From Amycolatopsis jejuensis (GTDB lineage Bacteria > Actinomycetota > Actinomycetes > Mycobacteriales > Pseudonocardiaceae): a stretch of 64,000 nt of DNA. Below are positions 19,608 through 40,173 of the stretch, one piece after another. How positions within the stretch are numbered: the first letter of the stretch is position 1; every line of letters starts with the position of its first letter. Made by a program: the position numbers and the translations under genes. The stretch spans positions 62,001 through 126,000 of the forward strand of contig NZ_JNYZ01000006.1 in the NCBI RefSeq assembly GCF_000717335.1. The letters run 5' to 3'. Under the pieces are notes generated by a model. That model worked only from the letters and a program-made list of their open reading frames with translations. It was not told where the DNA came from and did not search any database.

Positions 19608-19623
19608 GTGCGTGCGCCGTGTC

Positions 19624-22663: not shown

Positions 22664-22675
22664 GGAGGTCGTGCC

Positions 22676-23761: not shown

Positions 23762-24516
23762 AGTTCTTCAGCCTCGAAACCGCGGATTTCGCCGACGGCC
23801 TCACAGTCGCGACCGGGTACAGCGCTGCGTTGCAGCGGAGAACGGACGTCACCCTGTACCACACCGGTCCGGGACCGCTCGTCATCCTGCTGCACGGGGT
23901 CTACGGCAGCCACTGGGCGTGGACCGGGAACGGCAGCGCGCACCGCATCCTCGACCGGCTCCAGGCCAGCGGCGAAGTCCCGCCGATGACCTTCGCCATG
24001 CCGTCGGACGGCGGGTTCGGCATCGGCAGCGGGTACCTCACGCGACCCGGCGAAGACGTCGAAAGCTGGGTGGTCGACGAGCTCCCGGCCCTCGCCGCCG
24101 AGGTGTGCCCGTCGGTGGACCGCTCCCGGATCGCGATCGCCGGGTTGTCCATGGGTGGCTGGGGCGCCCTCCGCCTCGCCGGACGCCACCCCGGCACGTT
24201 CGTTGCCGCGTCGGGGATGTCGCCGCTCACCGAACTGGGGCAGATCACCGATTTCGCCCCCATCGGCGACCACGCCCGCCACACCCCGGCCGCCGAACCT
24301 CTGGCCGAAATCCTGACGAGGAAGGGAATCCCGCCGTTCCGCATCGCCTGCGGGACCGGGGACGACCTGATCACCCCCGTCCGCGCGCTCCACCAGCAGC
24401 TCAGCGACGCCGGGGTAGCGCATGAGTACGACGAAGCGCCCGGCGAGCACGACTGGACGTACTGGCGCAGCGAACTCGCCGAGACGCTGCGATTCCTGGC
24501 CCGGCACGTGAAATGA
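23758..24516 (+). CDS. Alpha/beta-hydrolase esterase (S-formylglutathione hydrolase-like)
   Basis: A 252-residue esterase. Oxyanion-region LLHGVYG (44-50), nucleophile Ser131 in GLSMGGWG, acid in CGTGDDL, and His in APGEHDWTYW. The esterase-D/formylglutathione hydrolase family has the same GxSMGG elbow and HDWxxW ending. In the same operon as a class III-type dehydrogenase it may hydrolyse the formyl-thiol ester made by that enzyme; a sugar or aryl ester is also possible. The GTG start overlaps the dehydrogenase stop (GTGA). Confidence 0.87.
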   Translation: MKFFSLETADFADGLTVATGYSAALQRRTDVTLYHTGPGPLVILLHGVYGSHWAWTGNGSAHRILDRLQASGEVPPMTFAMPSDGGFGIGSGYLTRPGEDVESWVVDELPALAAEVCPSVDRSRIAIAGLSMGGWGALRLAGRHPGTFVAASGMSPLTELGQITDFAPIGDHARHTPAAEPLAEILTRKGIPPFRIACGTGDDLITPVRALHQQLSDAGVAHEYDEAPGEHDWTYWRSELAETLRFLARHVK

Positions 24517-24527
24517 GGGAGAAATCC

Positions 24528-25211
24528 ATGCAGGTTACCGTGTTCGCGCCGCATCCCGACGACGAGATCATCGGCTGCGGCGGCAGTGTGGTCAACTGGC
24601 TGCGTTCCGGCGCCGAAGTGTCCTTTGTGTACTTGTGCAACGGCGACGCGGGCTCACAGGCGATGAGCCGCGCGGAACTCGGTGCGGTGCGGAAAGCCGA
24701 AGCCACCGCCGGGGCCGCGCACCTCGGCGTCACCGATCTCGTCTTCCTCGACCAGACCGACGGCTGCCTCGCCGAGACCCGCACGCTCCTGACCACGCTC
24801 ATCGACCTCATCCGCGAGAAACGGCCGGACGTCGCGTACCTCCCGCACGCGACCGACGGCCATCCGGACCACATCGTCACGCACCAGCTCGTCACGAAGG
24901 CCGCCGGGATCGCCGCGGGACCGTGGTGGCCCGAGTCGACCGGCGCCCCGTGGGCGATCGACCTGCAGCTCGCGTACGAGGTCTGGACCCCCATTCAACG
25001 CCCGACGCACCTCGAAGACACCACCGACGCCCTCGACCTGCAGCTGGAAGCCTTGTCCCACCACGGTTCCCAGCTCGACACCATGCCGTACGACGCCTTC
25101 ATCCGCGGCCTCGGCTCCTACCGCGGCGCCACGCTCGGCGCAGGCCGCTCCGCCGAGGCTTTCGAAGTCCTGCGCCTCGGCACGCTGCCCGGCCGGACAC
25201 CGGTTTCCTAG
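24528..25211 (+). CDS. PIG-L (LmbE)-family N-deacetylase
   Basis: A 227-residue zinc hydrolase with HPDDE (9-13) at the end of the first strand and HPDH near residue 115, the conserved metal ligands. The family includes GlcNAc-PI deacetylase, the mycothiol enzymes MshB and Mca, and LmbE-like proteins. It removes acyl groups from amino sugars or cleaves mycothiol conjugates. It is shorter than Mca or MshB (about 290-300). I use the ATG at 24528 with GAGGGAG before it; another ATG at 24513 overlaps the upstream stop. Next gene: a sugar-type MFS transporter. Confidence 0.85.
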   Translation: MQVTVFAPHPDDEIIGCGGSVVNWLRSGAEVSFVYLCNGDAGSQAMSRAELGAVRKAEATAGAAHLGVTDLVFLDQTDGCLAETRTLLTTLIDLIREKRPDVAYLPHATDGHPDHIVTHQLVTKAAGIAAGPWWPESTGAPWAIDLQLAYEVWTPIQRPTHLEDTTDALDLQLEALSHHGSQLDTMPYDAFIRGLGSYRGATLGAGRSAEAFEVLRLGTLPGRTPVS

Positions 25212-25226
25212 CAACGGGAAGTGAAC

Positions 25227-26675
25227 ATGAACGAGCAGTTACGGGTCCCTGCAACGACGTCGGCCGTAACGCGGTCCGGGTTGTCCCGGGTCACCCTGCG
25301 CATCGTCGCCGGTGCGCTGATGGTCGGCTTCGTCTACGGCTACGACCAAGGCTCGATTGCCGGAGCGGCGCTCTTCCTCACCGCGCAGTTCGGCCTCACG
25401 CCGTTCGACATCTCGGTGATCGTCACCGCCGTTCCGGTCGGCACGTTCGCCGGCGCGATCGTGGCCGGGAAGGTGACCAACCGGATCGGGCGGAAGCGTT
25501 CGATCATGGCCATTGCGGTGGGCTTCGCGGTTTTCTCCGCGCTGCAAGGGTTTGCGGTGGACATGTGGACCCTTGCCGCGGTCCGGATGGGGCTCGGCCT
25601 CGTGGTGGGCATTTCCCTGGTCGCCGCACCGCAGTTCATCGCCGAGTCCACCACCACCCGCGTCCGCGGGTCCGCGCTGGTCAGCTTCCAGATCGCCGGG
25701 GCGGTCGGTCTGGTCGTGTCGTACCTGGTGTCCGTCGCGCTCGCCCCGGGCGAGAACTGGCGGCTGATCCTCGGCCTCGCGGCCATCCCCGGCGTGCTCG
25801 CGGTCTTCGTGCTCCGGCCGCTGCCCGACACCCCGCACTGGTACCTGGCGAAGGGCCGCCGGAGCGACGCTGCCCGCGTGCTGCGTGCCGTCGAACCGGG
25901 CGATGACCCCGAAACCCACCTCGGACGGATCGAGGAAGACCTGAAATCGGTCGGCTCCGATACGTACAAGCAGCTGCTCAAGCCGCCGATGCGGCGCGCC
26001 GGGATCTTTGCCGTGGGCCTCGGTCTGCTCGTGCAGGTGACCGGTATCAACGCAATCGTGTACTACAGCCCGGCAATCCTCACCGACATCGGCTTCGGCA
26101 GCGCCCAAGGCGCGCTCCTCGGTTCGGCCGTGCTGCAGATGATCGGCCTGGCCGCGGTCTGCGTGGCGTTCCTGGTCGTGGACCGGTGGGGCCGCCGTCC
26201 GGTGCTGATGAGCGGCATCACCGTGATGATCGTGGCGAACGCGGTCCTGATGATCGCGTTCACCATCGGTGACGCGAAATTCCTCGGTGCGGTGGGCGTG
26301 GCGTTGTTCCTCATCGGGTTCCAGTTCGGCTACGGCGCGCTGGTGTGGGTTTACGCCGCGGAAAGCCTGCCTGCGCAGCTGCGCGCGGTGGGTGCGTCCG
26401 TGCTGATGGCCGCCGACCTCTTCGGCAACATCGTCGTCGGCATTTTCTTCCCCAACGCGATGGCCGCGATGGGCGGCACCGCGACGTTCGGGCTTTTCCT
26501 GGTGATGTCGGTGATCGCGCTCGCCTTCATCGCGAAGCTGGCGCCCGAGGTGAAAGGCCGCCAGCTGGAGGAAATCCGCGAGTACTGGGAGCGGGGTGGC
26601 CGCTGGGCTCAGCGGCCCGAACGGCGTCCCGCCCAGTCCGAAGTGGACTCCCGGACGCGCAGCTCCGACGGGTAG
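25227..26675 (+). CDS. MFS sugar porter-family transporter
   Basis: A 482-residue, 12-helix transporter. Sugar-porter signatures are present: GYDQGSIAGA in helix 1, NRIGRKR in loop 2-3, WRLILGLAAIPG and PDTPHWYLAKGR in the middle, QVTGINAIVYYSP in helix 7, and DRWGRRP in loop 8-9. It imports a sugar, cyclitol or similar polar compound with protons. It closes the P450 operon and so may bring in its substrate (perhaps a glycoside). The last 67 bases overlap the 3' end of the convergent LacI gene. The ATG at 25227 is preferred over the GTG at 25221. Confidence 0.88.
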   Translation: MNEQLRVPATTSAVTRSGLSRVTLRIVAGALMVGFVYGYDQGSIAGAALFLTAQFGLTPFDISVIVTAVPVGTFAGAIVAGKVTNRIGRKRSIMAIAVGFAVFSALQGFAVDMWTLAAVRMGLGLVVGISLVAAPQFIAESTTTRVRGSALVSFQIAGAVGLVVSYLVSVALAPGENWRLILGLAAIPGVLAVFVLRPLPDTPHWYLAKGRRSDAARVLRAVEPGDDPETHLGRIEEDLKSVGSDTYKQLLKPPMRRAGIFAVGLGLLVQVTGINAIVYYSPAILTDIGFGSAQGALLGSAVLQMIGLAAVCVAFLVVDRWGRRPVLMSGITVMIVANAVLMIAFTIGDAKFLGAVGVALFLIGFQFGYGALVWVYAAESLPAQLRAVGASVLMAADLFGNIVVGIFFPNAMAAMGGTATFGLFLVMSVIALAFIAKLAPEVKGRQLEEIREYWERGGRWAQRPERRPAQSEVDSRTRSSDG

Positions 26676-27622
26676 ACCACCTCCCGCGGCTTGTCCGAGG
26701 GCTGCGCAATGCGTTCGAGCAGCAGGTCCACGGCCAGCTCACCCTGCCGCTCCGGGAACGTGGCGGCACTGGTGAGCGGGGTCGGCTGGAGCGCGGCCTC
26801 GCTGATGTCGTCGAAGCTCGCCAGCGCGACGCCGCGGCCGGGCTCGATGCCCCGGCGGCGCAGCGCGCTGACCACCCCGAGCGCGACCACATCGCTGTAC
26901 GCGACGATCGCGTCCGGGAGCGCACCCAGATCGAGCAGTTCCTCGGCGGCCCGGGTGCCCCCGGCGTGTTCGCCGTCGGTGGCGATCGACCAGTCCGGGC
27001 GCAGGGTGAGCCCGGGCGCGCGCAGCCCCGCCTCGCGCGCGGCGCGGACCGTGCAGCCGGGTAACCCGCCGAGGAAGGCGACCGAACGCACGCCCAGCCC
27101 GGCCAGGTGCTCCGCGACCTGGCGGGCCGCGTTCTCGTGGTCGACCAGCACGCAGTCGGCGGTGAGCCCGGGGACGCGACGGTCGATGAGCACATGCGGG
27201 ATCGCCGAGAGGCTGCGGGCGAGGGAGTCGGCCGGGGTTTCGGTGGCCGGCAGCAGCACGACCCCGTCGACCCGCTGCTCGACCATCGCCGACAGCAGCT
27301 TGTCCTGCCGGTCCAGCATGTCGCGGCTGTACCCGGTGAGCAGCGTGCAGCCGGCGCGGTGCGCGTGCTCCTCGACGGCCATCGTGACGTCGGCGTACCA
27401 CGGGTCGCGCACCCCGGTGAGCACCAGGCCGACCGTCATCGTGCGCTGCGTGCGGAGGTTGGCGGCCTGCCGGTTGTACACGTAACCGAGCCGGACCATC
27501 GTGTCCAGCACCCGCTGCTTCGTCGGCTCCGAAATCTTGGTGCTGCCACGGAGAACCAGGGAAACCGTCGCGCGCGAGACATTGCTTTCGGCCGCCACGT
27601 CGTTGATGGTCACCCGTGGCAT
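26609..27622 (-). CDS. LacI-family repressor (copy A)
   Basis: A 337-residue repressor. The helix-turn-helix INDVAAESNVSRATVSLVL (about 5-23) and hinge helix LGYVYNRQAANL are followed by a periplasmic-binding-protein-like domain (GLVLTGVRDPWYADVTMAVEE; VLLPATETP; ASFDDI). It binds a sugar-like inducer and a palindromic operator. A perfect palindrome lies between this gene and the divergent GMC/permease operon. The recognition helix SRATVSLVL is identical to that of the second LacI protein at 32723-33733, next to which the same operator sequence occurs. The 3' end overlaps the transporter gene by 67 bases. Confidence 0.92.
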   Translation of the reverse strand: MPRVTINDVAAESNVSRATVSLVLRGSTKISEPTKQRVLDTMVRLGYVYNRQAANLRTQRTMTVGLVLTGVRDPWYADVTMAVEEHAHRAGCTLLTGYSRDMLDRQDKLLSAMVEQRVDGVVLLPATETPADSLARSLSAIPHVLIDRRVPGLTADCVLVDHENAARQVAEHLAGLGVRSVAFLGGLPGCTVRAAREAGLRAPGLTLRPDWSIATDGEHAGGTRAAEELLDLGALPDAIVAYSDVVALGVVSALRRRGIEPGRGVALASFDDISEAALQPTPLTSAATFPERQGELAVDLLLERIAQPSDKPREVVYPSELRVRESTSDWAGRRSGR

Positions 27623-27673: not shown

Positions 27674-27702
27674 TTGACACCCGGGTGGCGCGGGCGTATG
27701 GT
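27674..27702 (+). promoter_or_regulatory. Strong promoter of the GMC/permease operon
   Basis: Perfect -35 TTGACA at 27674-27679 and TATGGT at 27697-27702, separated by 17 bases. The LacI-type operator starts 7 bases after the -10 element and so covers the likely start of transcription, which is the classic position for repression. Confidence 0.7.
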
Positions 27703-27709
27703 TCCCCGT

Positions 27710-27729
27710 CAGGTAGATCGATCTACCAA
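27710..27729. promoter_or_regulatory. LacI-type operator, copy 1
   Basis: The 20-base sequence CAGGTAGATCGATCTACCAA contains the perfect 16-bp palindrome GGTAGATCGATCTACC (27712-27727). The same 20 bases occur once more at 32692-32711. It lies between repressor A and the operon it faces. Confidence 0.85.
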
Positions 27730-27813
27730 CGTAGTACCAAGGAAAACGGGCGGGCCGCTTCGAGGCCGCGATCATCCGGAAAACACATCACTGGACAGGC
27801 GAGGGTTGAGTCA

Positions 27814-29397
27814 ATGACGAGCAACGGCCTGCCGGACCACGGCACAGCTTCCCGCGGCGGGAGCCCGCCCCGGGAAGCGGACATCATCGTCATCGGGGCC
27901 GGGATGGGCGGTGGCACCCTCGCCTACGCGCTGCGCGACGCGGGCGCGAAGGTGCTGCTGGTCGAGCGCGGTGGGTACCTGCCTGCCGAACGGCAGAACT
28001 GGGAACCGAAAGCCGTGTTCTCCGGCCGGTACAAACCTGCCGAGTCCTGGGTGGACAGTGCCGGGCGCGCGTACACCCCGGGCATGCACTACTTCGTCGG
28101 CGGCAACACGAAAATGTACGGCGCCGCGCTGACCCGGTTCCGCGAGGAGGACTTCGGGGAGCTCACCCACCACGGCGGCGAATCCCCGGCGTGGCCGGTC
28201 GGCTACCGCGAGCTCGAGCCGTACTACACGGCGGCGGAATCGCTGTACCGCGTGCACGGCGAGGTGGGACAGGATCCCACCGAACCCCGGCATTCCCGGG
28301 ATTTCCCGTATCCGCCGCTGCCGCACGAGGCCGCGGTCGCCCGGCTCGGCGACCGGCTGCGCGCACAGGGCCTGCACCCGTTCCACCTGCCGATGGGCAT
28401 CGACTACCGGCCCGGCGGAAAATGCGTCTGGTGCGCGACGTGCGACGGATTCCCGTGCCTGGTCCAGGCGAAGAGCGACGCCGAGGTGTGCGCGATCCGG
28501 CCGGCGCTGGAGTCCGGGAACGTCGAAATCAGCACGCACACCAAGGTCCTCCGGCTGAAGACCGGGCCGGACGGCAAGCGCGTGGTGGCCGCGGAGGTCG
28601 AGCGCGACGGCGAACGGTTCGAGCTGCGCGCGGACACCTTCGTGGTGGCCGCCGGTGCCGCGAACACGACCGCAATTCTGTTGCGCAGCGGGGAAAACGG
28701 CCTCGCGAACGGGTCGGACCAGCTCGGCCGCAACTACATGCAGCACCACATGTCCGCGGTGATGGCCGTGGCCGCCCGGCCGGGGCAGACCGTGTTCCAG
28801 AAGACCATCGGGGTCAACGATTTCTACCTCGGCGGCGCGCACTGGCAGTACCCGATGGGCAGCGCGGCCACGTTCGGCAAGCTCACCGGCGAGATCCTGC
28901 ACCAGGCCCGGCGCGCCGTCCCGGCCGCGGTGCTCGACCAGCTCGGCCGCCGCAGCGTCGACTGGTGGCTGATGACCGAAGACCTGCCCGACCCGGAGAA
29001 CCGCGTCACGCTCGATGCGTCCGGCCGGATCGCGGTCCGGCGGACCCTGAACAACCACGAGCCGCACACCCGGCTGATCCGCGCGGTGAAGAAGATGCTG
29101 GCCAAGGCCGGGTACCCGGTGGCGTTCCACCAGGAGTTCGGCCTCGAGACCAACTCACACCACTGCGGTACCGCCCGGATGGGCACCGACCCGGCGGTCT
29201 CGGTCGTCGACGCCCACGGCAAGGCACACGACCTGGAGAACCTGTACGTCGCGGACTCCTCCGTCTTCCCGGCGTCCGGCGCGAACAACCCGTCGCTCAC
29301 CATCGCCGCGCTCGCGTTGCGGATGGCCCACCAGCGGTTCGGCGTCACGGACCTGCTCGACCGCATGCATTCCCCGCTCTCCCCTGCAACCCGCTGA
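27814..29397 (+). CDS. GMC-family flavoprotein oxidoreductase
   Basis: A 527-residue FAD enzyme. Dinucleotide site IVIGAGMGGGTLAY (about 27-40), VGGNTKMYGAALTRFR in the substrate region, and the C-terminal GMC signature with SHHCGTARMGTDP and SVFPASGANNPSLTIAALALR. A pair of adjacent His and the ANNP motif mark the active site. Members oxidise alcohols or sugars to aldehydes, ketones or lactones. The form without a signal peptide resembles the membrane-linked choline/gluconate dehydrogenase group. It is the first gene of the operator-controlled operon, 9 bases before a permease. Confidence 0.9.
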   Translation: MTSNGLPDHGTASRGGSPPREADIIVIGAGMGGGTLAYALRDAGAKVLLVERGGYLPAERQNWEPKAVFSGRYKPAESWVDSAGRAYTPGMHYFVGGNTKMYGAALTRFREEDFGELTHHGGESPAWPVGYRELEPYYTAAESLYRVHGEVGQDPTEPRHSRDFPYPPLPHEAAVARLGDRLRAQGLHPFHLPMGIDYRPGGKCVWCATCDGFPCLVQAKSDAEVCAIRPALESGNVEISTHTKVLRLKTGPDGKRVVAAEVERDGERFELRADTFVVAAGAANTTAILLRSGENGLANGSDQLGRNYMQHHMSAVMAVAARPGQTVFQKTIGVNDFYLGGAHWQYPMGSAATFGKLTGEILHQARRAVPAAVLDQLGRRSVDWWLMTEDLPDPENRVTLDASGRIAVRRTLNNHEPHTRLIRAVKKMLAKAGYPVAFHQEFGLETNSHHCGTARMGTDPAVSVVDAHGKAHDLENLYVADSSVFPASGANNPSLTIAALALRMAHQRFGVTDLLDRMHSPLSPATR

Positions 29398-29406
29398 GAG
29401 GTCGTC

Positions 29407-30849
29407 ATGGGATTTTCCTCCAGAACCGGCAAGACCGACCTGCATCCGGGTTTCGAGCGGCAGATCGGCCCGATGCAGGCCACCGCCATCAACATGACCC
29501 AGATGTGCGGCATCGGGCCGTTCCTCACGATCCCGCTGATGGTCGCCGCGATGGGCGGTCCGCAGGCGATGTTCGGCTGGGTGGTCGGCGCGCTGATCGT
29601 GCTCGCCGACGGCCTGATCTGGGCCGAGCTCGGCGCGGCGATGCCCGGCGCCGGCGGCACCTACCTGTACCTGCGCGAGGCGTTCCAGTACCGCACCGGG
29701 CGGCTGATGCCGTTCCTCTTCGCCTGGAGCGCGGTGCTGTTCATCCCGCTGATCATGGCGACCGGCGTGATCGGGCTCGTGCAGTACCTCGGGTTCCTGG
29801 TACCGGGCCTGGTCGACGCGGACGGCAACACCACGACGGTGGGTCACCTCGTCGGGATCGGCGTGGTCGCGCTGGTGGTCTTCGCGCTGTATCGCCGGAC
29901 CCGGCAGATCAGCAAGTTCACCACGGTGCTGTTCGCGATCATGGTGTTCACCGTTCTCACGGTGATCGTGGCGGCCTTCGCCGACTTCCACGCGAGCTAC
30001 GCGTTCGCCTTCACCCCGGGTGCGTTCGAGCTTTTCGGCGGCCCGTTCTGGACCGGCCTCGGCGCCGGTCTCGTGATCGCGATCTACGACTACCTCGGGT
30101 ACAACACGAGTGCGTACCTCGGCGCGGAAATCCGCAATCCCGGCCGCACGATCCCGCGGTCCATCGTGGCGTCGATCGTCGGGATCATGTCGTTCTACCT
30201 GGTGCTGCAGATCGGCGTGCTCGGCGCGATGCCGTGGGAAGAGCTCTCGAAGTCGACCTCGATGGCGTCGCAGATCCTGCAGCTGGCCTGGGGGACCACC
30301 GCGGCGAAGATTCTCACCGTGGCGATCGTGATCACCGCATTCGGCGCCATTTTCGCCGGTCTGCTCGGCGGTTCGCGAGTGCCCTACGAAGCGGCGCGGG
30401 ACAAGCTTTTCCTGCCCTGGTTCGGCCGGCTGCACCCGCGGCTGAAGCTCCCGACTGTCGGCCTGCTCGCGATGGGCGTCGTCACGGCGATCGGCTCGCT
30501 GTTCGACCTGTCCGACGTGATCGCCATGCTCACCGCGGTCTTCGTCCTCGTGCAGTCGATTTCGCAGGTCGTCGCCCTCACCGTGCTGCGCCGCCGCCAG
30601 CCCGGCCTGCACCGCCCGTACCGGCAGTGGCTGTACCCGGTGCCCAGCGTGGTCGCGCTCGCCGGATGGGTCTTCATCTACACCCAGTCCGGTACCCAGG
30701 CGATCCTGCTGTCGCTGCTGTGGGTCGCCGCGGGCGGGATCGCGTTCCTGATCTGGGCTCGGTTCGAACGCACCTGGCCGTTCGGGCCGAAGGAGATCAA
30801 GGAGCAGTTCCTGACGGAAACCAGCCGGGCGACGGAGAGTGCCGGATGA
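29407..30849 (+). CDS. APC-family permease
   Basis: A 480-residue, roughly 12-helix transporter of the amino acid-polyamine-organocation family. Helix 1 region INMTQMCGIGPFLTIPLM and the following GGPQAMFGWVVGALIVLADGLIWAELGAAMPGAGGTYLYL stretch are typical. It moves an amine, amino acid or related compound across the membrane, probably by proton symport. Located between a GMC oxidoreductase and an SDR in one transcription unit, it is the best candidate for the uptake step of the pathway. Its stop overlaps the SDR start (ATGA). Confidence 0.88.
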   Translation: MGFSSRTGKTDLHPGFERQIGPMQATAINMTQMCGIGPFLTIPLMVAAMGGPQAMFGWVVGALIVLADGLIWAELGAAMPGAGGTYLYLREAFQYRTGRLMPFLFAWSAVLFIPLIMATGVIGLVQYLGFLVPGLVDADGNTTTVGHLVGIGVVALVVFALYRRTRQISKFTTVLFAIMVFTVLTVIVAAFADFHASYAFAFTPGAFELFGGPFWTGLGAGLVIAIYDYLGYNTSAYLGAEIRNPGRTIPRSIVASIVGIMSFYLVLQIGVLGAMPWEELSKSTSMASQILQLAWGTTAAKILTVAIVITAFGAIFAGLLGGSRVPYEAARDKLFLPWFGRLHPRLKLPTVGLLAMGVVTAIGSLFDLSDVIAMLTAVFVLVQSISQVVALTVLRRRQPGLHRPYRQWLYPVPSVVALAGWVFIYTQSGTQAILLSLLWVAAGGIAFLIWARFERTWPFGPKEIKEQFLTETSRATESAG

Positions 30850-31559
30850 GGCTCGCGGGGAAGGTCGCGGTGGTGACCGGCGGCGGGTCCGGGATCGGCC
30901 GGGCGATCGCCGAGGAGTTCACCCGGGCCGGGGCGCAGGTCGTGGTGGTCGACCGGACAGGCGAATCCGGGGTCATCGGCGATGTCGGCCGTGCGGAAAC
31001 CTGGGACGAGGTCCGGGAAACGGTCCTTGAGCGGTGGGGCCGCTGGGATGTACTGGTCAACAATGCGGGGTACGGAATCCGCGCCACCGCGGAGAAAACC
31101 TCGCTGGACGAGTGGCAGGCAATTCTGCAAACCAATGTCACGAGCGTATTCCTCGGCTCCCGCGCGGCAGTTCCGGTGATGCGGGAAAACGGCGGCGGGA
31201 GCGTGGTGAACATGGCTTCGGTGGCCGGGACGATCGGCATGGCGGAACGTGCGGCTTACTGCGCAACGAAAGCAGCGGTGGTCGGCCTCACGAAAGCGAT
31301 GTCGGTGGACCACGCGGCCGACGGTATCCGGTTCAACTGCGTGGCCCCCGGAACCATCGACACGCCGTATTTCACGAAAATCGCCGCTGAAGTGGACGAC
31401 GTCGAAGCCTTCCGGGCCGGGCTCGCCGCGCGGCAGCCGCTCGGCCGTCTCGGGCAACCGGCGGAGGTCGCTGCGGCGGCATTGTTCCTGGCGTCGGCGG
31501 AATCGTCGTTCGCCACCGGTTCGGTCGTGACCGTCGACGGAGGGATGAGCGTATGGTGA
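30846..31559 (+). CDS. Short-chain dehydrogenase/reductase (SDR)
   Basis: A 237-residue classical SDR. TGGGSGIGRAI (about 11-21) binds NAD(P); NNAGYG, the catalytic Ser in NMASVAG, and YCATK with Tyr and Lys complete the active site. The Asp after the second strand (VVDRTG) favours NAD over NADP. It oxidises or reduces a secondary alcohol/ketone. It overlaps both neighbours, the APC permease and the DUF993 gene, so it belongs to the same operon. The longer frame through this region is only a shadow. Confidence 0.92.
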   Translation: MRLAGKVAVVTGGGSGIGRAIAEEFTRAGAQVVVVDRTGESGVIGDVGRAETWDEVRETVLERWGRWDVLVNNAGYGIRATAEKTSLDEWQAILQTNVTSVFLGSRAAVPVMRENGGGSVVNMASVAGTIGMAERAAYCATKAAVVGLTKAMSVDHAADGIRFNCVAPGTIDTPYFTKIAAEVDDVEAFRAGLAARQPLGRLGQPAEVAAAALFLASAESSFATGSVVTVDGGMSVW

Positions 31560-32698
31560 TCCATCTTCCGGACGGGATCGGCGAGTACCGGCTCGGTTCG
31601 CCGGGCTGCTTCTTGCCGCCCGCAGCCCCGTTCCGATCGCGGATCGCTTACGCCGCAGCGCACGTCGTCCCGGACGCGGCGGCGGACAACACGCCCGGCG
31701 CTCCGCCGAAACTGGACTGGGACCGCACGCTCGCGTTCCGGCACGAGCTGTGGCGCTGGGGTTTCGGCGTCGCCGAGGCCATGGACACCGCGCAACGCGG
31801 AATGGGTCTCGACTGGCCCACCGCGGCCGAGTTGATCCGCCGTTCGGCCGCCGAGGCCAGGTCGGCCGGCGCCCGGATTGCTGTCGGTGTCGGCACCGAC
31901 CAGGTGACCGACCCGTCGCTCCCGCAGGTGATGGCGGCGTACCGGGAACAGCTCGCGGTGGCGGAAGACGCGGGTGCCACGCCGATCCTCATGGCCAGCC
32001 GGGCGCTCGCCCAAGTGGCGCGGTCCGCGGACGACTACGCCGAGGTGTACGACTCCCTGCTGGCCGAGGTGTCCCGTCCAGTGATCCTGCACTGGCTGGG
32101 CGACGCGTTCGACCCGCAGCTCGCCGGATACTGGGGCTCGGCCGACCTGGACGACGCGGCCGAAACGGTGTTGTCCCTGATCAGCCGCCACGCGAAGCGG
32201 ATCGACGGGATCAAGCTGTCGCTCCTCGACGCCGACCGCGAACGGTCCCTGCGGCAACGGCTGCCGGCCGGAGTGCGGATGTACACCGGCGACGATTTCC
32301 ACTACAGCGAGCTGATCGAGGGCGACGGCACCGGGTACAGCGATGCCTTGCTCGGCGTGTTCGCCGCGATCGCGCCGGCCGCGTCGCATGCCTTGCAGGC
32401 TCTCGACAACGGTGACGCCGCCACGTATCGCAAGGTGCTGGCGCCGACCGTGCCGCTCGCCCGGCAGCTGTTCGCGGCCCCGACGTATCACTACAAGACC
32501 GGAATCGTCTTCCTGGCCTGGCTCAACGGCCACCAGGACCACTTCGGCATGGTGAACGGCGCCCAGCACGGGCGGAGCCGAGCACACCTGACCGAGGTGT
32601 TCCGGCTGGCTGACCAGGCCGGGCTGCTGCGCGATCCCGAGCTGGCCGTCCACCGGATGCAGACGTTTCTGGCCGAGTCGGCTACGCTACGCAGGTAG
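31553..32698 (+). CDS. DUF993-family (dihydrodipicolinate synthase-like TIM barrel) protein
   Basis: A 381-residue protein that I assign to DUF993, annotated in databases as dihydrodipicolinate synthase family. The alternating pattern of a TIM barrel is clear: IAVGVGTDQVTD, GATPILMASRAL, VILHWLGDAFDP, IDGIKLSLLDAD with a Lys at the place of the Schiff-base Lys, and MYTGDDFHYSELI. An aldolase-type reaction through that Lys (about residue 221) is plausible but unproven. The family typically occurs beside Gfo/Idh/MocA and LacI genes, as here. Its stop codon lies inside operator copy 2. Confidence 0.82.
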   Translation: MVIHLPDGIGEYRLGSPGCFLPPAAPFRSRIAYAAAHVVPDAAADNTPGAPPKLDWDRTLAFRHELWRWGFGVAEAMDTAQRGMGLDWPTAAELIRRSAAEARSAGARIAVGVGTDQVTDPSLPQVMAAYREQLAVAEDAGATPILMASRALAQVARSADDYAEVYDSLLAEVSRPVILHWLGDAFDPQLAGYWGSADLDDAAETVLSLISRHAKRIDGIKLSLLDADRERSLRQRLPAGVRMYTGDDFHYSELIEGDGTGYSDALLGVFAAIAPAASHALQALDNGDAATYRKVLAPTVPLARQLFAAPTYHYKTGIVFLAWLNGHQDHFGMVNGAQHGRSRAHLTEVFRLADQAGLLRDPELAVHRMQTFLAESATLRR

Positions 32699-32711
32699 AT
32701 CGATCTACCAA
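32692..32711. promoter_or_regulatory. LacI-type operator, copy 2
   Basis: Identical over 20 bases to the operator at 27710-27729. It overlaps the stop codon of the DUF993 gene and lies 11 bases before the second LacI gene, just ahead of that gene's GGAGG ribosome site. Binding here could shut an internal promoter or block read-through of the upstream operon. Confidence 0.85.
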
Positions 32712-32722
32712 TAGGAGGGGAA

Positions 32723-33733
32723 GTGGCACGCGTCCGGCTCAAGGACATCGCGGCGGCTTGCGGTGTTTCGCGGGCGACGGTCTCGCTGGTGCTGCAGGAC
32801 AGCGGGCGGGTGTCGCACGGGACGAAGGAGCGCGTGCGGGAGGCCATGCACCGGATGGGATACGTCTACGACCGGCGGGCGGCACTCCGCGCGAGCCGGA
32901 CGATGATCGTCGGGCTTGTGACCACCCACGTCCGCAATCCGTACTTCGCCGAGCTGTCCATGGCGATCGAAGGCGCGCTGTACGACCAGGGGTACACCCT
33001 GCTGCTCGGCTACAGCCGGGACGACGCCGCTCAGCAGGCCCGGCTGCTCGAAGGCATGATCGAGCACCGCGTCGACGGCCTGCTGATCGTCCCGGCGTAC
33101 CAGACCGACCGTGCCGCCCTCGAACGCACGCTGGCCGCTTCCGCGACGCCGCACGTGCTTGTCGCGAGGCATGTCGAGGGGTTCGACGCGGATTACGTCG
33201 GGGTGGACAACGTCCGCGCGGCCGAGCTCGTGGGCGCGCATCTGGCCGAGCAGGGGTACCAGCGCGTCGCCTTCCTCGGCGGCCCGGCGGGTTCGACGGC
33301 CCGCGCCGAGCGGGAGTACGGGCTGCGGAAAGCGCTGGAGGCGCACGGCCGCGAGCTGGACCCGGCGTTGTCCATCGCCACCAGCGCCGACCGTGACGGC
33401 GGCGCGGCGGCCGTGCAGCACCTGCTCGCGGCGGGGCAGGTACCGGACGCGGTCGTCTGCTACAGCGACGTCACCGCGTTCGGTGCGATGGCGGCGTTGC
33501 GGTCTGCCGGGACCATCGCGGTGGCGAGCTTCGACGATCTTCCCGCGGCCGCGCAGCACCAGCCGCCGCTCACCTCGGTCGCCACTTTCCCTGCCCAGAC
33601 CGGCCTCGACGCCGCCCTGCTGCTGCAGGCGCGGATCGACGACCCGGCTCTTCCGTCCCGCAGCGTCCTGCTCACCCCGCGGCTGCATGCGCGGGAATCG
33701 ACGCTCGGCCCGAACGAACGGAGTACGACATGA
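32723..33733 (+). CDS. LacI-family repressor (copy B)
   Basis: A 336-residue repressor. The helix-turn-helix LKDIAAACGVSRATVSLVL and hinge MGYVYDRRAALRA match copy A, with an identical SRATVSLVL recognition helix; the sensor domain differs more (MAIEGALYDQGYTLLLGYSR; NVRAAELVGAHLAEQGY). It begins with GTG after a GGAGG site. The operator copy 2 just upstream implies self-control. Two repressors with different sensors but one operator would let the pathway answer to two different inducers. Its stop overlaps the Gfo/Idh/MocA start. Confidence 0.92.
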   Translation: MARVRLKDIAAACGVSRATVSLVLQDSGRVSHGTKERVREAMHRMGYVYDRRAALRASRTMIVGLVTTHVRNPYFAELSMAIEGALYDQGYTLLLGYSRDDAAQQARLLEGMIEHRVDGLLIVPAYQTDRAALERTLAASATPHVLVARHVEGFDADYVGVDNVRAAELVGAHLAEQGYQRVAFLGGPAGSTARAEREYGLRKALEAHGRELDPALSIATSADRDGGAAAVQHLLAAGQVPDAVVCYSDVTAFGAMAALRSAGTIAVASFDDLPAAAQHQPPLTSVATFPAQTGLDAALLLQARIDDPALPSRSVLLTPRLHARESTLGPNERSTT

Positions 33734-34713
33734 GCACCCTGCGCTGGGGCCTCGTCGGCGCGAGTGACATCGCCGCCACCCGGATGATCCCCGCCATGCG
33801 GCGGCTCGGGCATCCGGTGACCGCGGTGTGCAGCTCGTCGGCGGCGCATGCGGCGGATTACGCCGACCGCAACGAAATCCCGTACCACACCACCGATCTC
33901 GACGCCTTCCTGAACCGGGACGACATCGACGCCGTCTACCTCAGCTCCACCAATGAACGGCACTGTCCACAAGCGATTGCGGCTGCGGCGGCGGGTAAAC
34001 ACGTGCTCTGTGAGAAGCCGCTCGCGCTGACGATCGAGGATGCCGAGTCGATGGTCGCGGCTTGCGTCAAGGCAGGCGTGACCTTCGCGGTGAACCATCA
34101 TCTTCCCGGCGCGGCAACGCATCGGGAGATCCGGCGGCTGGTTGCCGGGGGAGCGGTCGGGCGGCCCCTTGCAGTGCGGGTGTTTCACGCGGTGTCGTTG
34201 CCGGAGCGGCTTCGTGGCTGGCGGCTGCAGGATTCGACCGCGGGTGCCGGGGTTGTCCTCGACATCACCTGTCACAGCGCATCGGTGGTCAACGCGTTGC
34301 TGGGATCGCCGCAAGCGGTCACCGCGCTTTCGGTGCGGCAGGGCGAGTGGGACAGCGTGGTCGACGACGCCGCGATGTCGGTGGTGCGTTACGAAGGCGA
34401 CGTTCTGGCGCAGCTGCACGACGCGTTCACCGTCGGCTACGCCAGCACAGGCTTCGAAGTCCACGGCACCGAAGGGTCGATCGTCGCCACCGACGTGATG
34501 ACGCAGGATCCGGTCGGGCGGGTGGTGCTCCGCGATTCCGCCGGGGTTCGGGAGATCGAGATCCCGGACCGGCCGGATCTGTACGAGACCGTCCTGACCG
34601 CCTTCGCCGCGGACGAACCCTCCGTCACCGCGGCGGACGGCATCGACGCGCTGTCAGTGGCGCTGGCCGTGCGGCGGTCGGCCGAAACCGGCCAGACGGT
34701 CGACCTGACCTAG
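33730..34713 (+). CDS. Gfo/Idh/MocA-family oxidoreductase
   Basis: A 327-residue NAD(P)-dependent enzyme. N-terminal Rossmann fold GLVGASDIAATRMIPA (about 7-22), the conserved EKPLAL (about 96-101) with the catalytic Lys, and a C-terminal mixed-sheet domain ending in TVDLT. Asp/His residues in LDITCHSASVVNALLG (about 177-192) are the usual proton-relay positions. The family oxidises or epimerises sugars, inositols and related polyols. Its ATG overlaps the repressor B stop (ATGA), placing it in the second half of the pathway cluster. Confidence 0.9.
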   Translation: MSTLRWGLVGASDIAATRMIPAMRRLGHPVTAVCSSSAAHAADYADRNEIPYHTTDLDAFLNRDDIDAVYLSSTNERHCPQAIAAAAAGKHVLCEKPLALTIEDAESMVAACVKAGVTFAVNHHLPGAATHREIRRLVAGGAVGRPLAVRVFHAVSLPERLRGWRLQDSTAGAGVVLDITCHSASVVNALLGSPQAVTALSVRQGEWDSVVDDAAMSVVRYEGDVLAQLHDAFTVGYASTGFEVHGTEGSIVATDVMTQDPVGRVVLRDSAGVREIEIPDRPDLYETVLTAFAADEPSVTAADGIDALSVALAVRRSAETGQTVDLT

Positions 34714-34721
34714 GAGACATC

Positions 34722-36308
34722 ATGCGCAAAGTACCTGTTCTGTCCGCATTGGACGCCGCAGCGCTGATCCCGGACGAGTCCGTCGTGTCGGTCAGCTCGT
34801 CGTCTGCGCTCGGCTGCCCGGACTTCGTCTTGAAGGGCATCGGCGAACGGTTCACCGAAACCGGGTCACCCCGCAATCTCACCACCGTGCATCCCATTGC
34901 CGCGGGCGACATGTACGGCGTCGCGGGGGTCGATCACGTTGCGGTGCCGGGACTTCTCCGCCGGATCATCGCCGGTTCGTACCCGAGCGGGCCGTCCTCG
35001 GCGGAACCGCCGCTGATCTGGCAGCTGATCGAGCAGGACGCGATCGAGGCGTACAACCTCCCGTCCGGCGTGCTCTTCCAGATGCACCGCGCCGGGGCGA
35101 CGGGCCAGCCCGGCGTGCTGACCGAGGTCGGCCTGGACACTTTCGCCGACCCGCGGCACGACGGCGGCCGGATGAACGACCGCACCACCGGCGACCTGGT
35201 CGAGGTCGAGGAACGCGACGGCAAGGAATGGCTGTTCTACCCGGCGGTGCGGCCGGACGTCGCGATCATCCGCGCCACCACGGCCGACGAATGGGGCAAC
35301 CTGACCTTCGAGGACGAGGGGTCGACGCTGGGTGCGCTCGACCAGGCCTACGCCGCGCACAACCACGGCGGCATCGTGATCGCGCAGGTCAAGCGGCTCG
35401 CGGCGGGCGGGTCGCTGCCGCCGCAGCAGGTCCGGGTACCGGGTATTCTCGTCGACGCGCTGGTGATCCACGAGGACCAGCTGCAGACCACCCAGACCGC
35501 GTACGACCCGGCGATCAGCGGCCAGATCCGGCGTCCGCTCGACGTGATCGGACCGGCGCCGTGGGGGGTCGAGAAGGTGATCGCCCGGCGGGCCGCGGCC
35601 GAGCTGGCGCCGGACGAGATCGTGAACCTCGGGTTCGGGATTTCCGCGCTGGTGCCGCGGATTCTGGTGGAACAAGGCCACGCGGACGCGGTCACCTGGG
35701 TGATCGAACAGGGCGCGGTCGGCGGCACCCCGCTCACCGGGTTCGCGTTCGGCTGCGCGCTCGACCCGCAGGCGCTGATGCCGAGCATCGACCAGTTCAC
35801 CCTCCTGCAGGGTGGCGGGTTCGACCAGGCCTTGCTGTCGTTCCTGGAAATCGACGAGCAGGGCAGTGTCAACGTGCATCACCTGCCGGGGCGACGGCAC
35901 GTGACGGCCGGGGTCGGCGGGTTCGCCGACATCACGTCGCACGCGAAAAGCATTGTGTTCAGCGGCAATTTCACCGCCGGGCGCCGGGAAATCAGCGCCG
36001 AGGACGGCCGGTTGGTGATCGCCCGCGACGGTACGGTGCCGAAGCTGGTCGAGCGCGTGAGTGCAGTGACGTTCTCCGGGCCGCGCGCGCTCGCGAACGG
36101 CCAGCAGGTCCGGTACGTCACCGAGCGGTGCGTGCTCGAACTGCGGCCCGAGGGCATGACGGTGATCGAGGTCGCCCCGGGCGCCGACCTGCAGCGCGAC
36201 GTCCTGGACCAGGCCGCGGGCAAGCTGCGCGTCGCCGATGACGTGCGCGAAATGGACAGTCACCTGTTCCGTCCCGAGCCGCTTCCGACGATCTTCCGCA
36301 AGGACTGA
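34722..36308 (+). CDS. Family I CoA-transferase, fused alpha-beta (acetate/propionate/3-oxoacid type)
   Basis: A 528-residue enzyme in which both halves of a family I CoA transferase are joined, as in YdiF and propionate CoA-transferase. Catalytic Glu329 in WVIEQGAVGG forms the gamma-glutamyl-CoA intermediate; GFGISALVPR (304-313) precedes it. It moves CoA from acetyl- or succinyl-CoA onto a carboxylic acid made by the pathway. It starts 8 bases after the Gfo/Idh/MocA stop with GGAGA before the ATG, and is followed 5 bases later by a second GMC oxidoreductase. Confidence 0.9.
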   Translation: MRKVPVLSALDAAALIPDESVVSVSSSSALGCPDFVLKGIGERFTETGSPRNLTTVHPIAAGDMYGVAGVDHVAVPGLLRRIIAGSYPSGPSSAEPPLIWQLIEQDAIEAYNLPSGVLFQMHRAGATGQPGVLTEVGLDTFADPRHDGGRMNDRTTGDLVEVEERDGKEWLFYPAVRPDVAIIRATTADEWGNLTFEDEGSTLGALDQAYAAHNHGGIVIAQVKRLAAGGSLPPQQVRVPGILVDALVIHEDQLQTTQTAYDPAISGQIRRPLDVIGPAPWGVEKVIARRAAAELAPDEIVNLGFGISALVPRILVEQGHADAVTWVIEQGAVGGTPLTGFAFGCALDPQALMPSIDQFTLLQGGGFDQALLSFLEIDEQGSVNVHHLPGRRHVTAGVGGFADITSHAKSIVFSGNFTAGRREISAEDGRLVIARDGTVPKLVERVSAVTFSGPRALANGQQVRYVTERCVLELRPEGMTVIEVAPGADLQRDVLDQAAGKLRVADDVREMDSHLFRPEPLPTIFRKD

Positions 36309-36313
36309 GGTAC

Positions 36314-37909
36314 ATGCCTGACAACCGATTCGACTACATCGTGGTGGGCGCGGGCGCGGCGGGCTGCGTCGTCGCGAACCGGCTGGCGCAGGACCCCGGC
36401 ACCCGCGTGCTGCTGCTGGAGGCGGGCGGGCGCGACTGGTCGCCGCTGATCCACCTTCCGGTCGGGTTCACGAAACTGACCAGCCCGGCGGTGAACTGGG
36501 GCTTCGAAACCGTGCCGCAGCCGCAGCTGAACGACCGCCGGATGTGGTACCCGCAGGGCCGCACGCTCGGCGGGAGCACGTCGATCAATGCGATGATCTA
36601 CATCCGCGGGCACGCCGAGGACTACGAGACGTGGAAGAAGCTCGGCAACAAGGACTGGGGGTACGAGGAGGTCCTGCCGTTCTTCCGGCGCGCCGAGCAC
36701 AACGAACGGCTCGCCGACGCCTACCACGGCACCGACGGCCCGATGAACGTCACCGAGCAGGTGCAGCACAACGAGCTGAGCAAGGCTTTCGTCCGTGCCG
36801 CGCAGGAGCTCGGGCTGCCGTTCAACCACGATTTCAACGGGGCGCGGCAGGACGGCGTCGGCTATTACGACGTGACCCAGCGGAATGTGCGGCGGGAAAG
36901 CTCGGCGACGGCGTACCTGAAACCAGTGCGGCGCAACGGGAATCTCACCATTGTCACGCATGCGCTGGCGACGAAGGTGCTGGTTTCCTCGGGGAAAGCG
37001 GTCGGGGTCCGGTATCTGCACAAGAACACGCCTGCGGTGGCTTATGCCGATCGAGAGGTTGTGCTGAGCGGCGGCGCGGTCAACTCGCCGCGGTTGCTGC
37101 TGCTGTCCGGGATCGGGCCTGCCGACGAGCTCCGTCCACTCGGGATCGACGTGGTGCACGATCTGCCCGGGGTCGGCAAGAACTTCCAGGACCACATGGA
37201 CGTTTATCTCACCGCCGAGACGGTTCCGGTGAGCTACAACGAATCCGACCGGCCCGATCGTGCATTGCGGTACGGTCTTCAGTATCTGCTCACGAAAACC
37301 GGTCCGGTCACCGCCTGCGTGTGCGAGGCCGGGGCGTTCGTGCGCAGCAGTGACGAGGTGGTGTCGCCGGACATCCAGATCCACTGCCTGCCCGCGTTCG
37401 TCATCGACCACGGCCGCCGCCGGGTGAAGGGGCACGGCCTCACCATCAACACGTGCAATCTCCGGCCCCGCAGCATCGGGGAGGTCCGGCTGCATTCTTC
37501 CGATCCCGGCCGGGCGCCGGCGATCAACCCGAACTACCTGGCCGATCCGTACGACTGGCAGGTTTCGATGGCCGGCTTCCGCTGGGGCCGGAAACTGTTG
37601 CAGTCGGAGGCTTTCGCGCCTTATGTGAGGCAGGAGCACCTGCCCGGCGCGCAGGTGCAGACCGATGATGAGCTGCGTACGTATATCCGCGAATGGGCCA
37701 AGACCGATTACCATCCGGTCGGTTCCTGCAAAATGGGGACCGACGAGATGGCGGTGGTGGACGGCGAACTGCGCGTGCACGGATTGGACGGGCTGCGGGT
37801 CGTCGATGCTTCGATCATGCCTACCTTGATCAGCGGGAACACACAGGCGACGTCGATCATGATCGGGGAGAAGGGTGCGCACCACCTGCTTGCGGGGCCT
37901 GCGCGATGA
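36314..37909 (+). CDS. GMC-family oxidoreductase, choline/alcohol dehydrogenase-like
   Basis: A 531-residue FAD enzyme of the BetA/AlkJ type. FAD site VVGAGAAGCVVANRLA (about 11-26), GMC signature 1 GRTLGGSTSINAMIYIRG (about 82-99), signature 2 SGGAVNSPRLLLLSGIG (about 255-271), and the active-site YHPVGSCKMGTD plus SGNTQATSIMIGEKGA. It oxidises a primary alcohol to the aldehyde and passes electrons to a quinone or oxygen. An aldehyde dehydrogenase is encoded two genes later, so alcohol to acid is likely. Its stop overlaps the hydratase start (ATGA). Confidence 0.92.
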   Translation: MPDNRFDYIVVGAGAAGCVVANRLAQDPGTRVLLLEAGGRDWSPLIHLPVGFTKLTSPAVNWGFETVPQPQLNDRRMWYPQGRTLGGSTSINAMIYIRGHAEDYETWKKLGNKDWGYEEVLPFFRRAEHNERLADAYHGTDGPMNVTEQVQHNELSKAFVRAAQELGLPFNHDFNGARQDGVGYYDVTQRNVRRESSATAYLKPVRRNGNLTIVTHALATKVLVSSGKAVGVRYLHKNTPAVAYADREVVLSGGAVNSPRLLLLSGIGPADELRPLGIDVVHDLPGVGKNFQDHMDVYLTAETVPVSYNESDRPDRALRYGLQYLLTKTGPVTACVCEAGAFVRSSDEVVSPDIQIHCLPAFVIDHGRRRVKGHGLTINTCNLRPRSIGEVRLHSSDPGRAPAINPNYLADPYDWQVSMAGFRWGRKLLQSEAFAPYVRQEHLPGAQVQTDDELRTYIREWAKTDYHPVGSCKMGTDEMAVVDGELRVHGLDGLRVVDASIMPTLISGNTQATSIMIGEKGAHHLLAGPAR

Positions 37910-38667
37910 CCGTTATCCTGCGTTGGGCAGGTTTGGTCGCCGAGATTCTGCTCGACCGTCCGGAGAAACGTAATGCGCTGACTCCGGAAATGCTCGACTC
38001 ATTGGGTTTGGTGCTGGCGGAAATTGCGTCGTCGGACGCTCGGGTCGCGGTGATTCGCGGTGCGGGGGACAAGGCGTTCTGTGCCGGGGCGGATATCACG
38101 CGATTCGCCGGGTTGTCGCCGGAACTCATGTGGCGGGACTGGACCGCGCGCGGGCACCGGGTTTTCGACGCACTGGCCGCGCTGCCGCAGCCGACCGTAG
38201 CGGTGGTGCACGGCAATGCCTTCGGGGGAGGGCTGGAGCTGGCGCTGGCGTGCGATTTCCGTTTGCTCGCCCCGGAAGTGACGCTCGGACTGCCCGAGGT
38301 AGGGCTGGGTACGGTCCCGGGTTGGGGTGGTACGGAGCGGCTCACCCAGCTGGTCGGACCGGCGCGGGCCAAGGAGATCATCCTTTCGCGCAGGCTGGTG
38401 GACGCTGACACCGCCGTCGCCTGGGGCCTGGCCACTGCGGTTTCCGGTTCGCTGGATGCCGCTGTCGACGAGCTGGTGACCCGGCTGACCGGTGGCGCGC
38501 CCATTGCCGTTCAGGTGGCGAAACAGCTCATCGACGCTGCGGCCGCGGGCGCTCCGGCTCGGGTGCTGGAACCCCTTGCCGGGGCACTGAGCTCGGCGAC
38601 CAGCGATCTCGCCGAGGGAGTCGCGGCGTTCCGGGAACGCCGCGATCCCGTTTTCACCGGACATTGA
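37906..38667 (+). CDS. Enoyl-CoA hydratase/isomerase-family protein
   Basis: A 253-residue crotonase-fold protein. DRPEKRNALTPEML (about 18-31), the oxyanion region AFCAGADITRF (about 57-67) and VVHGNAFGGGLELALACDFRLL (about 100-121) are well preserved, as is LPEVGLGTVPGWGGTERL with the Glu typical of hydratases. It adds water to an enoyl-CoA or carries out a related CoA-thioester reaction. With the CoA transferase two genes upstream it forms the CoA-dependent arm of the pathway. Confidence 0.9.
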   Translation: MTVILRWAGLVAEILLDRPEKRNALTPEMLDSLGLVLAEIASSDARVAVIRGAGDKAFCAGADITRFAGLSPELMWRDWTARGHRVFDALAALPQPTVAVVHGNAFGGGLELALACDFRLLAPEVTLGLPEVGLGTVPGWGGTERLTQLVGPARAKEIILSRRLVDADTAVAWGLATAVSGSLDAAVDELVTRLTGGAPIAVQVAKQLIDAAAAGAPARVLEPLAGALSSATSDLAEGVAAFRERRDPVFTGH

Positions 38668-38688: not shown

Positions 38689-40173
38689 ATGACAATTCCC
38701 AGCCATCACCGGATGGTCATTGACGGCGAGGACGTAGAAGCTCTTGCCGGGGATCGCTTCTCGCGCACGAGCCCGGCGCACGACACGGTCGTGACGAGTT
38801 ATCCGCGCGCGGATGCCGACGACGTCGACCGTGCGGCCCGCGCGGCGCGGCGAGCCTTCGACGAGGGCCCGTGGCCGAAACTGGCGGCGGTCGACCGTTC
38901 CCGCGTGCTGCTGCGGGTCGCCGCGCTGATCCGCCGGGATGCCGCGGCACTGGCCCGGCTCGAGGTGCTGGAGAGCGGGAAGCCGATCGACCAGGCGCTC
39001 GGCGAGGTCGCGACCGCCGCGGAATTGTGGGACTACGCCGCGGCGTTGGCCCGGCACGCCCACGGCGACGCGCACAACACGCTGGGGGAGGACGTGCTCG
39101 CGATGGTGCTGCGCGAGCCGGTCGGGGTGGTCGCGATGATCACGCCGTGGAACTTCCCGCTGCTGATCGTGAGCCAGAAACTGCCGTTCGCCCTGGCGGT
39201 CGGCTGTACCGCGATCGTGAAGCCGAGCGAGCTGACGCCCGGAACCACCGTGGCGCTGGCCGGGCTCCTGCGGGAAGCCGGGCTGCCGGACGGCGTCGTG
39301 AACGTGGTGACCGGCGCCGGTGGCATCGGCTCCGCGATGACCTGCCACGACGCCGTCGACATGGTTTCGTTCACCGGCTCGACCGAGGTCGGGCGCGCAG
39401 TCGCCAGTGCAGCCGGGCAGCGGCTCAAGAAGGCCGAACTGGAACTGGGCGGCAAAAACCCGCAAATCGTCTGCGCCGACGCCGACCTGGACGCGGCTCT
39501 GGATGCAGTCGTGTTCGGCGTCTACTTCAATGCGGGGGAATGCTGTAACAGCGGCAGCCGGGTCCTCGTCGACCGGCGCATTGCGGCAGATTTCCAAGCC
39601 GCGGTGATACGGCGATCGAAGGAGGTCCCCGTCGGCGATCCCCTGGACCCGGCCACCCGGATCGGCGCGATCACCAGCCAGGAACAACTGGACACCATCG
39701 AACGCTACGTCGCGGAAGGCACCGCCGCCGGCGCGAGCCTGGCCCTTGGCGGCAGCCGCCTCCCGACCCCCACCGGCCGGTTCTACCACCCCACGGTCTT
39801 CACCGACGTACGCCGGGAAATGTCGATCGCCCGAGAGGAAATCTTCGGCCCGGTCTTGTCGATGCTGACTTTCTCCAGTTTGGACGAAGCAGTCTCCATC
39901 GCGAACGACACGGTGTACGGCCTGTCGGCAGGAATCTGGACGTCGGACGTGAACGCCGCGCTGACCGCGTCCCGGACCCTCCGCGCCGGAACAATCTGGG
40001 TCAACCGCTGGATGGACGGCTACCCGGAACTCCCCTTCGGCGGCTTCGGCGCAAGCGGCCTGGGCCGCGAACTGGGCCGGCACGCCATCGGCGAGTTCAC
40101 GGAGACCAAGACGGTGCAACTTCAGGTGGGCCCGCGCACAACCCGCTGGCTGACTGACCCGGTGGCGGGGTAA
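38689..40173 (+). CDS. NAD-dependent aldehyde dehydrogenase (betaine-aldehyde/aminoaldehyde type)
   Basis: A 494-residue enzyme. Catalytic Cys in FNAGECCNSGSR, base Glu in LELGGKNPQ, NAD site FTGSTEVGRAV and TPWNFPLL are intact. The arrangement NxGECCxxGSR is typical of betaine/aminoaldehyde and other broad aldehyde dehydrogenases. It converts the aldehyde made by the GMC enzyme into a carboxylate that the CoA transferase could activate. It starts 21 bases after the hydratase stop and is the last gene of the cluster. Confidence 0.92.
   Translation: MTIPSHHRMVIDGEDVEALAGDRFSRTSPAHDTVVTSYPRADADDVDRAARAARRAFDEGPWPKLAAVDRSRVLLRVAALIRRDAAALARLEVLESGKPIDQALGEVATAAELWDYAAALARHAHGDAHNTLGEDVLAMVLREPVGVVAMITPWNFPLLIVSQKLPFALAVGCTAIVKPSELTPGTTVALAGLLREAGLPDGVVNVVTGAGGIGSAMTCHDAVDMVSFTGSTEVGRAVASAAGQRLKKAELELGGKNPQIVCADADLDAALDAVVFGVYFNAGECCNSGSRVLVDRRIAADFQAAVIRRSKEVPVGDPLDPATRIGAITSQEQLDTIERYVAEGTAAGASLALGGSRLPTPTGRFYHPTVFTDVRREMSIAREEIFGPVLSMLTFSSLDEAVSIANDTVYGLSAGIWTSDVNAALTASRTLRAGTIWVNRWMDGYPELPFGGFGASGLGRELGRHAIGEFTETKTVQLQVGPRTTRWLTDPVAG

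Follow-up and report, generated by a model that had tools for sequence, protein, structure and literature searches.

Organization of the locus

The 64,000-nucleotide stretch of Amycolatopsis jejuensis DNA analyzed here (contig NZ_JNYZ01000006.1; its whole length is called the window below) carries a putative catabolic gene cluster with two genes for LacI-family repressors, R1 and R2, and two copies of an identical 20-bp sequence, CAGGTAGATCGATCTACCAA. We refer to the copies as operators 1 and 2 (op1 and op2) in view of the comparisons described below. The genes that follow op1 make up module 1 (GMC1-APC-SDR-DUF993), and those that follow op2 make up module 2 (R2-Gfo-CoA transferase-GMC2-ECH-ALDH, where ECH is an enoyl-CoA hydratase and ALDH an aldehyde dehydrogenase). 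The features of the cluster are as follows, with L065 and L066 denoting loci of relatives.

26609..27622, minus strand: R1, LacI-family repressor of 337 residues, divergent from GMC1 (PF00356, PF13377, and PF00532 over cut-off)
27674..27702, plus strand: sigma-70-like promoter TTGACA-17-TATGGT ahead of GMC1 (consensus scan, 10/12)
27710..27729, no strand assigned: putative op1, CAGGTAGATCGATCTACCAA, over the predicted start site (sequence scans)
27814..29397, plus strand: GMC1, GMC-family oxidoreductase (PF05199/PF00732)
29407..30849, plus strand: amino acid permease, APC type (PF13520)
30846..31559, plus strand: SDR oxidoreductase (PF13561)
31553..32698, plus strand: DUF993 protein, dihydrodipicolinate synthase-like (PF06187, E 7.9e-180)
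32692..32711, no strand assigned: putative op2, the identical 20 bases, 11 bp before the R2 start codon (sequence scans)
32723..33733, plus strand: R2, LacI-family repressor of 336 residues (PF00356 and the others over cut-off)
33730..34713, plus strand: Gfo/Idh/MocA dehydrogenase (PF01408; 68% identical in L065)
34719..36308, plus strand: CoA transferase (PF01144; 80% identical in L065)
36314..37909, plus strand: GMC2, choline-dehydrogenase-like GMC oxidoreductase (NF002550 over cut-off; 73% identical in L066)
37906..38667, plus strand: ECH family protein (68% identical in L065)
38689..40173, plus strand: ALDH (PF00171; 72% identical in L065)

An earlier interpretation made from the letters of the DNA alone (the sequence-only reading) had placed each copy beside a LacI gene, one of them over the start site of a strong promoter and the other across a stop codon. 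This description holds, with the start site being a predicted one. Op1 lies 87 bp from the divergent R1 start codon and 84 bp from GMC1, and because it directly follows TTGACA-17-TATGGT, a match to the consensus at 10 of 12 positions, it would cover the predicted start site. Over 16.7 kb, the promoter scan gave 2 sites of this kind, versus 0.9 in shuffles. Op2 ends 11 bp before the R2 GTG and contains the TAG stop codon of the DUF993 gene (32696-32698).

Rarity and form of the repeated palindrome

Both copies of the 20-mer, at 27710-27729 and 32692-32711, are exact, as the sequence-only reading had stated; they are spaced 4982 bp apart, and there is no third copy within the window. Shuffling the window 100 times produced no such repeat. 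The inner 16 bases form a perfect palindrome, GGTAGATCGATCTACC, of even length with CG at its center (27712-27727 and 32694-32709), and these are two of the four perfect 16-bp palindromes in the window. This agrees with a common form of LacI-family operator, an even palindrome of 16 bp centered on CG, that is described in the consulted part of a report on LacI regulons (PMC4052901).

The genome that holds the window comprises 10.1 Mb in 136 contigs. Across it the 16-bp palindrome is found twice exactly, never with one or two mismatches, and 12 times with three mismatches, compared with 4 sites in all for a control in which the pattern was read backwards and an order-0 expectation of 0.0006 exact 16-mers per genome. 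For the 12-base core, TAGATCGATCTA, the genome contains a single site with one mismatch in addition to the two exact copies. The sequence-only reading had proposed a genome-wide count and had named many unrelated copies as the case against it, which did not arise.

Chance is ruled out as the source of the repeat by the genome-wide count, the shuffles, and the expected frequency, and the end of a mobile element or another dispersed repeat is ruled out because the genome has no further copies. That the palindrome is an element of this other kind rather than a LacI operator is hardly credible, given that it occurs only twice in the genome and is linked to one LacI subfamily across genera. Between 26000 and 42000, Rfam gave no match above gathering scores, and a literature search for the core string returned a single, unrelated match with a title on the beta1-adrenergic receptor.

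Relationship of the two repressors

R1 and R2 both have LacI/GalR architecture, with PF00356, PF13377, and PF00532 above gathering scores and a modeled helix-turn-helix, hinge helix, and core. Both model as complete LacI folds in AlphaFold2, with a mean predicted local distance difference test score (pLDDT) of 93.1 for R1 and 91.7 for R2. The two proteins are 50% identical end to end, and R1 is the top match to R2 in the genome (270 bits versus 142 for the next). Their recognition helix, SRATVSLVL, is the same, as the sequence-only reading had observed, and is encoded by only these two of the 20 LacI loci identified genome-wide. The genome thus encodes a paralog pair with one recognition helix. 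That reading also held that the sensor domains differ. They do, at 49% identity, but the DNA-binding part has diverged to much the same degree, being 52% identical over residues 1-46. The hinge helices had been called similar, yet that of R2 has a one-residue gap.

In a quick tree with 195 rows, which comprise 185 proteins from homologue searches and 10 LacI proteins from loci, R1 belongs to one clade (13 rows) and R2 to another (18 rows), with support of 100 and 99, respectively, in the Shimodaira-Hasegawa-like approximate likelihood ratio test (SH-aLRT). Members of the R1 clade include proteins named Amycolatopsis sp. NPDC101161 and Spirillospora sp. NBC_00431. Because the clades are separate, the pair is not a recent duplication, and this origin is ruled out at the SH-aLRT values given. 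Judged from their sequences, R1 and R2 are old paralogs of one LacI subfamily. Three proteins named Solirubrobacter taibaiensis and two named Nonomuraea sp. NPDC049480 are among the homologues. Within each group the proteins come from contigs of a single length, so that multi-repressor sets of the subfamily may recur.

Association of the palindrome with one LacI subfamily

Among 80 congeneric genomes, a LacI relative (E <=1e-60) is present in three and the palindrome (at most one mismatch) is present in three, and these are the same three: the genome studied here and two others, G055 and G060. The chance of this overlap is 1 in 82,160, or 1 in 3,081 without the present genome, in which the site had first been noticed, with relatedness ignored in both figures. 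The LacI proteins of G055 and G060 carry an R1-like helix, SRATASLV(V/L)RG, and are encoded on the same genome stretch as the palindrome, with sites 40 and 72 bp after the LacI gene in G060 and 2.8 kb after it in G055.

A second test used 17 loci of relatives picked by LacI homology alone (8, 2, 3 of 7 from a genome-contig search, and 4 from among 109 plasmid records that contain a relative of R2); both tests include the G055 and G060 loci. The core is present exactly in 7 of the 17 and with at most one mismatch in 12, compared with means of 0.00 loci exactly and 0.15 at one mismatch, with a maximum of 4, for 150 rearranged palindromes. All 12 core-bearing loci have at least one site within 3 kb of the LacI gene, and in 10 of them it lies within 500 bp. 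The remaining 18 LacI loci of this genome, each covered over about 3 kb, contained no site at one mismatch. Comparison thus shows the palindrome, with its core TAGATCGATCTA, to be the predicted operator of the LacI subfamily of R1 and R2. The single regulon envisaged by the sequence-only reading is supported, by the genome count and by the comparison with relatives, in the form of a local regulon of two sites.

The searches also delimit where the association is seen. In the genome-contig search, the best three of the seven loci (39-42% identity) are without the core at one mismatch, and the best core matches in the other four (26-32% identity) have two mismatches. R1 matched this genome alone among 390 genomes of the family (E <=1e-62) and among 301 genomes of the phylum (E <=1e-58), and it gave no match in 327 genomes of another family, which was picked by guess and searched without a positive control. 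R1 relatives occur in 60 plasmid records.

Since the operator can be assigned to this subfamily by comparison, the regulons of the subfamily, which is seen in several genera of actinobacteria and on plasmids of alphaproteobacteria, become predictable. In six of the loci (L039 and L042-L046), sulfatase-like and ABC transporter genes, identified by eye from translations, stand beside a TAGATCGATCTA site.

Histories of the two modules

Module 2 has a counterpart in another genome, G696, where an R2 orthologue (locus L065; 64% identical and the sole match at E 1e-66) is followed by Gfo, CoA transferase, a GMC, ECH, and ALDH genes, with the identities listed above for L065 applying to all of these but the GMC. 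G696 presumably belongs to a Streptomyces-type genus, judging from its congener G097, which has 11 chaplin domains, and from two Streptomyces names in the R2 clade. Measured back from the end of the ATG, the cores in L065 begin at 33 and 197 bases, and the corresponding figure for the R2 GTG in the window is 30. One site thus lies just before the start codon, as in the window, and the second lies 164 bp further upstream. Locus L066, in a genome of the same genus (G567), has the same genes, a LacI protein of 46% identity, and related sites, of which one lies at a distance of 3.1 kb from the rest. Neither gene set includes R1, indicating that module 2 with its own operator can occur in the absence of R1.

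Five loci were examined for the context of DUF993, from 145 plasmid records with this domain. On a Sagittula plasmid and a Paracoccus plasmid, DUF993 occurs together with CoA transferase, ECH, GMC, and an SDR-type reductase. This grouping on two alphaproteobacterial plasmids points to one pathway for both modules, and we consider that the two probably serve a single catabolic pathway. On pAO1, DUF993 is found with GMC, ALDH, Gfo, and glycerate kinase. None of the five loci has the core at one mismatch, suggesting that the pathway genes there run without this operator. The term DUF993 was not found in the literature searched.

The separate histories of the modules, with R2-type modules occurring without R1 in L065 and L066, would fit a situation in which each repressor serves its own module through other preferences and the identity of the two sites reflects recent copying or convergence on an ideal palindrome. 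We regard this as quite unlikely because op1 and op2 are identical over 20 bases, making the site itself indistinguishable to either protein, and because the recognition helices of R1 and R2 are identical.

Proposed sharing of the operator by two repressors

The explanation that we favor, and to which we would give slightly better than an even chance, is that the palindrome is a shared operator of two old paralogs and that two catabolic modules, each with a repressor and an operator, have become fused and cross-regulated in this cluster. As both LacI genes lie beside the same palindrome, which is absent elsewhere in the genome, both proteins probably control the same genes. R1 and R2 would each recognize op1 and op2. 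Repressor bound at op1 would block initiation at the GMC1 promoter and hence module 1. Repressor bound at op2, the position of which matches that of the site before the R2 orthologue in L065, would block an internal start or act as a roadblock that stalls read-through into module 2 and would also provide autoregulation of R2. Because either repressor could hold either site, full expression should need release by both. The comparisons support use of the operator by the R2 type (L065) and by lineages with an R1-like helix, and binding by both proteins is a prediction from these.

It is plausible that both proteins bind and that they sense different ligands, giving two-input control; the integration of two related metabolic signals by the pair would be the least certain step of the mechanism. 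More tentatively still, the arrangement could be a natural two-input logic gate with separate sensors, one helix, and identical operators, in which the pathway opens only with two different metabolites and the short R2 hinge makes for the weaker input, although we are doubtful that it goes so far.

Several observations weigh against a shared operator. The R2 hinge has a one-residue gap between the conserved Ala-Ala and Leu, where the residue is present in 17 of 17 clade mates; the column is gapped in 2 of the 195 rows of the tree, and a third row is gapped two columns earlier. R2 also has a five-residue gap near residue 264 that is private with respect to its clade mates, and R1 has private in-frame gaps after residues 138 and 201. 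The operator of R1 itself is inferred from other lineages, not from loci of the R1 clade. Five of the 17 relatives' loci are without the core at one mismatch; two of these five have TTTGGATCGATCCAAA, which differs by two mismatches, or a sequence close to it. Ahead of op2, the best promoter hexamers match the consensus weakly, at 6 of 12 positions. Lastly, a third LacI of the genome (L005, 1501-1635) has a partly similar helix, SRALVSLVM, with a different hinge and might be a further binder of the same operator.

With the gap in the R2 hinge and no locus from the R1 clade, the strongest rival is that R1 alone is a strong repressor of both sites and that R2, weakened or specialized by its short hinge, is kept as an antagonist or a weak autoregulator or is a decaying gene. 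This we consider possible but rather unlikely. Besides the rarity of the gap, it is favored by AlphaFold2 confidence under 50 at R2 residues 54-56. However, the reading frame of R2 is intact and its GC by codon position is ordinary, the gene is preceded by a perfect operator, and the R2 hinge, like that of R1, is still modeled as a helix over residues 51-58, albeit at low confidence. In addition, private gaps are not peculiar to R2, as R1 carries them too.

The sequence-only reading had also raised repression through a DNA loop, in which a pair of dimers or a tetramer would bridge op1 and op2. A distance of 5 kb is long for a stable DNA loop. No C-terminal tetramerization helix was found in R1 or R2, the lengths of which (337 and 336 residues) leave no room for the tetramer-forming tail of LacI. 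Their best PDB alignments stop at residues 327 (R1) and 325 (R2), the match of R2 to LacI stops at LacI residue 336 of 360, and both models end in disorder, with the last three residues under a pLDDT of 50. Because this tail is missing, looping is unlikely. In relatives, neighboring sites also lie close together for the most part (spacings of 19 and 123 bp in L039, 32 bp in L040, 164 bp in L065, and 345 bp in L066), and the R2 orthologue in L065 has close sites only. In favor of a loop are the two identical strong palindromes at their spacing of 4982 bp, a distant second site in two relatives (3.1 kb in L066 and 6.7 kb in L041), and the association of GalR dimers over long distances reported in the consulted part of a study of that repressor (PMC5110547). 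The proposal thus finds little support, and we consider it very unlikely.

Comparison with known repressor pairs

GalR and GalS of Escherichia coli share operators, respond to one and the same sugar, and are not encoded in a common operon. R1 and R2 are likewise paralogous LacI-family repressors predicted to act on one operator set, but their genes lie within one cluster. The consulted parts of two reports describe GalR and GalS as isorepressors (PMC5110547, PMC13056197). In Bifidobacterium breve, AraQ and MalR1 are distinct LacI-type regulators with near-identical operators and overlapping regulons, according to the sections consulted (PMC6882875). The present case resembles theirs in that one operator type is predicted for two LacI-type regulators. 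Whereas the AraQ and MalR1 sites, as described there, are dispersed and concern central carbon metabolism, the two sites here lie in one catabolic cluster, each adjoining a repressor gene.

Engineered LacI/GalR chimeras, as presented in the part of the report consulted, combine a common DNA-binding domain with several sensors that act through one operator, giving multi-input control (PMC13056197). Unlike these man-made proteins, R1 and R2 are natural and have diverged over their whole length. LacI pairs with a shared operator are therefore already known, and R1 and R2 would be a further predicted case, in which joint binding is inferred. The cluster may offer a compact natural example of how labor is divided between two repressors that cannot distinguish one operator from the other; engineers construct this type of arrangement deliberately.

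Other features of the window

Upstream of the cluster, at 20577-25211, genes for a P450, an iron-sulfur flavoprotein reductase, an alcohol dehydrogenase, an esterase-like protein (assigned by eye), and a PIG-L-like deacetylase lie in a row. The alcohol dehydrogenase is nearest to NDMA- and mycothiol-dependent types and falls below their cut-offs. Perhaps these genes form an oxidative demethylation set. Farther upstream, the stretch 19458-19680 contains a 29-bp unit that occurs twice exactly (19550-19607) and a direct repeat with copies at 19458 and 19630, about 172 bp apart.

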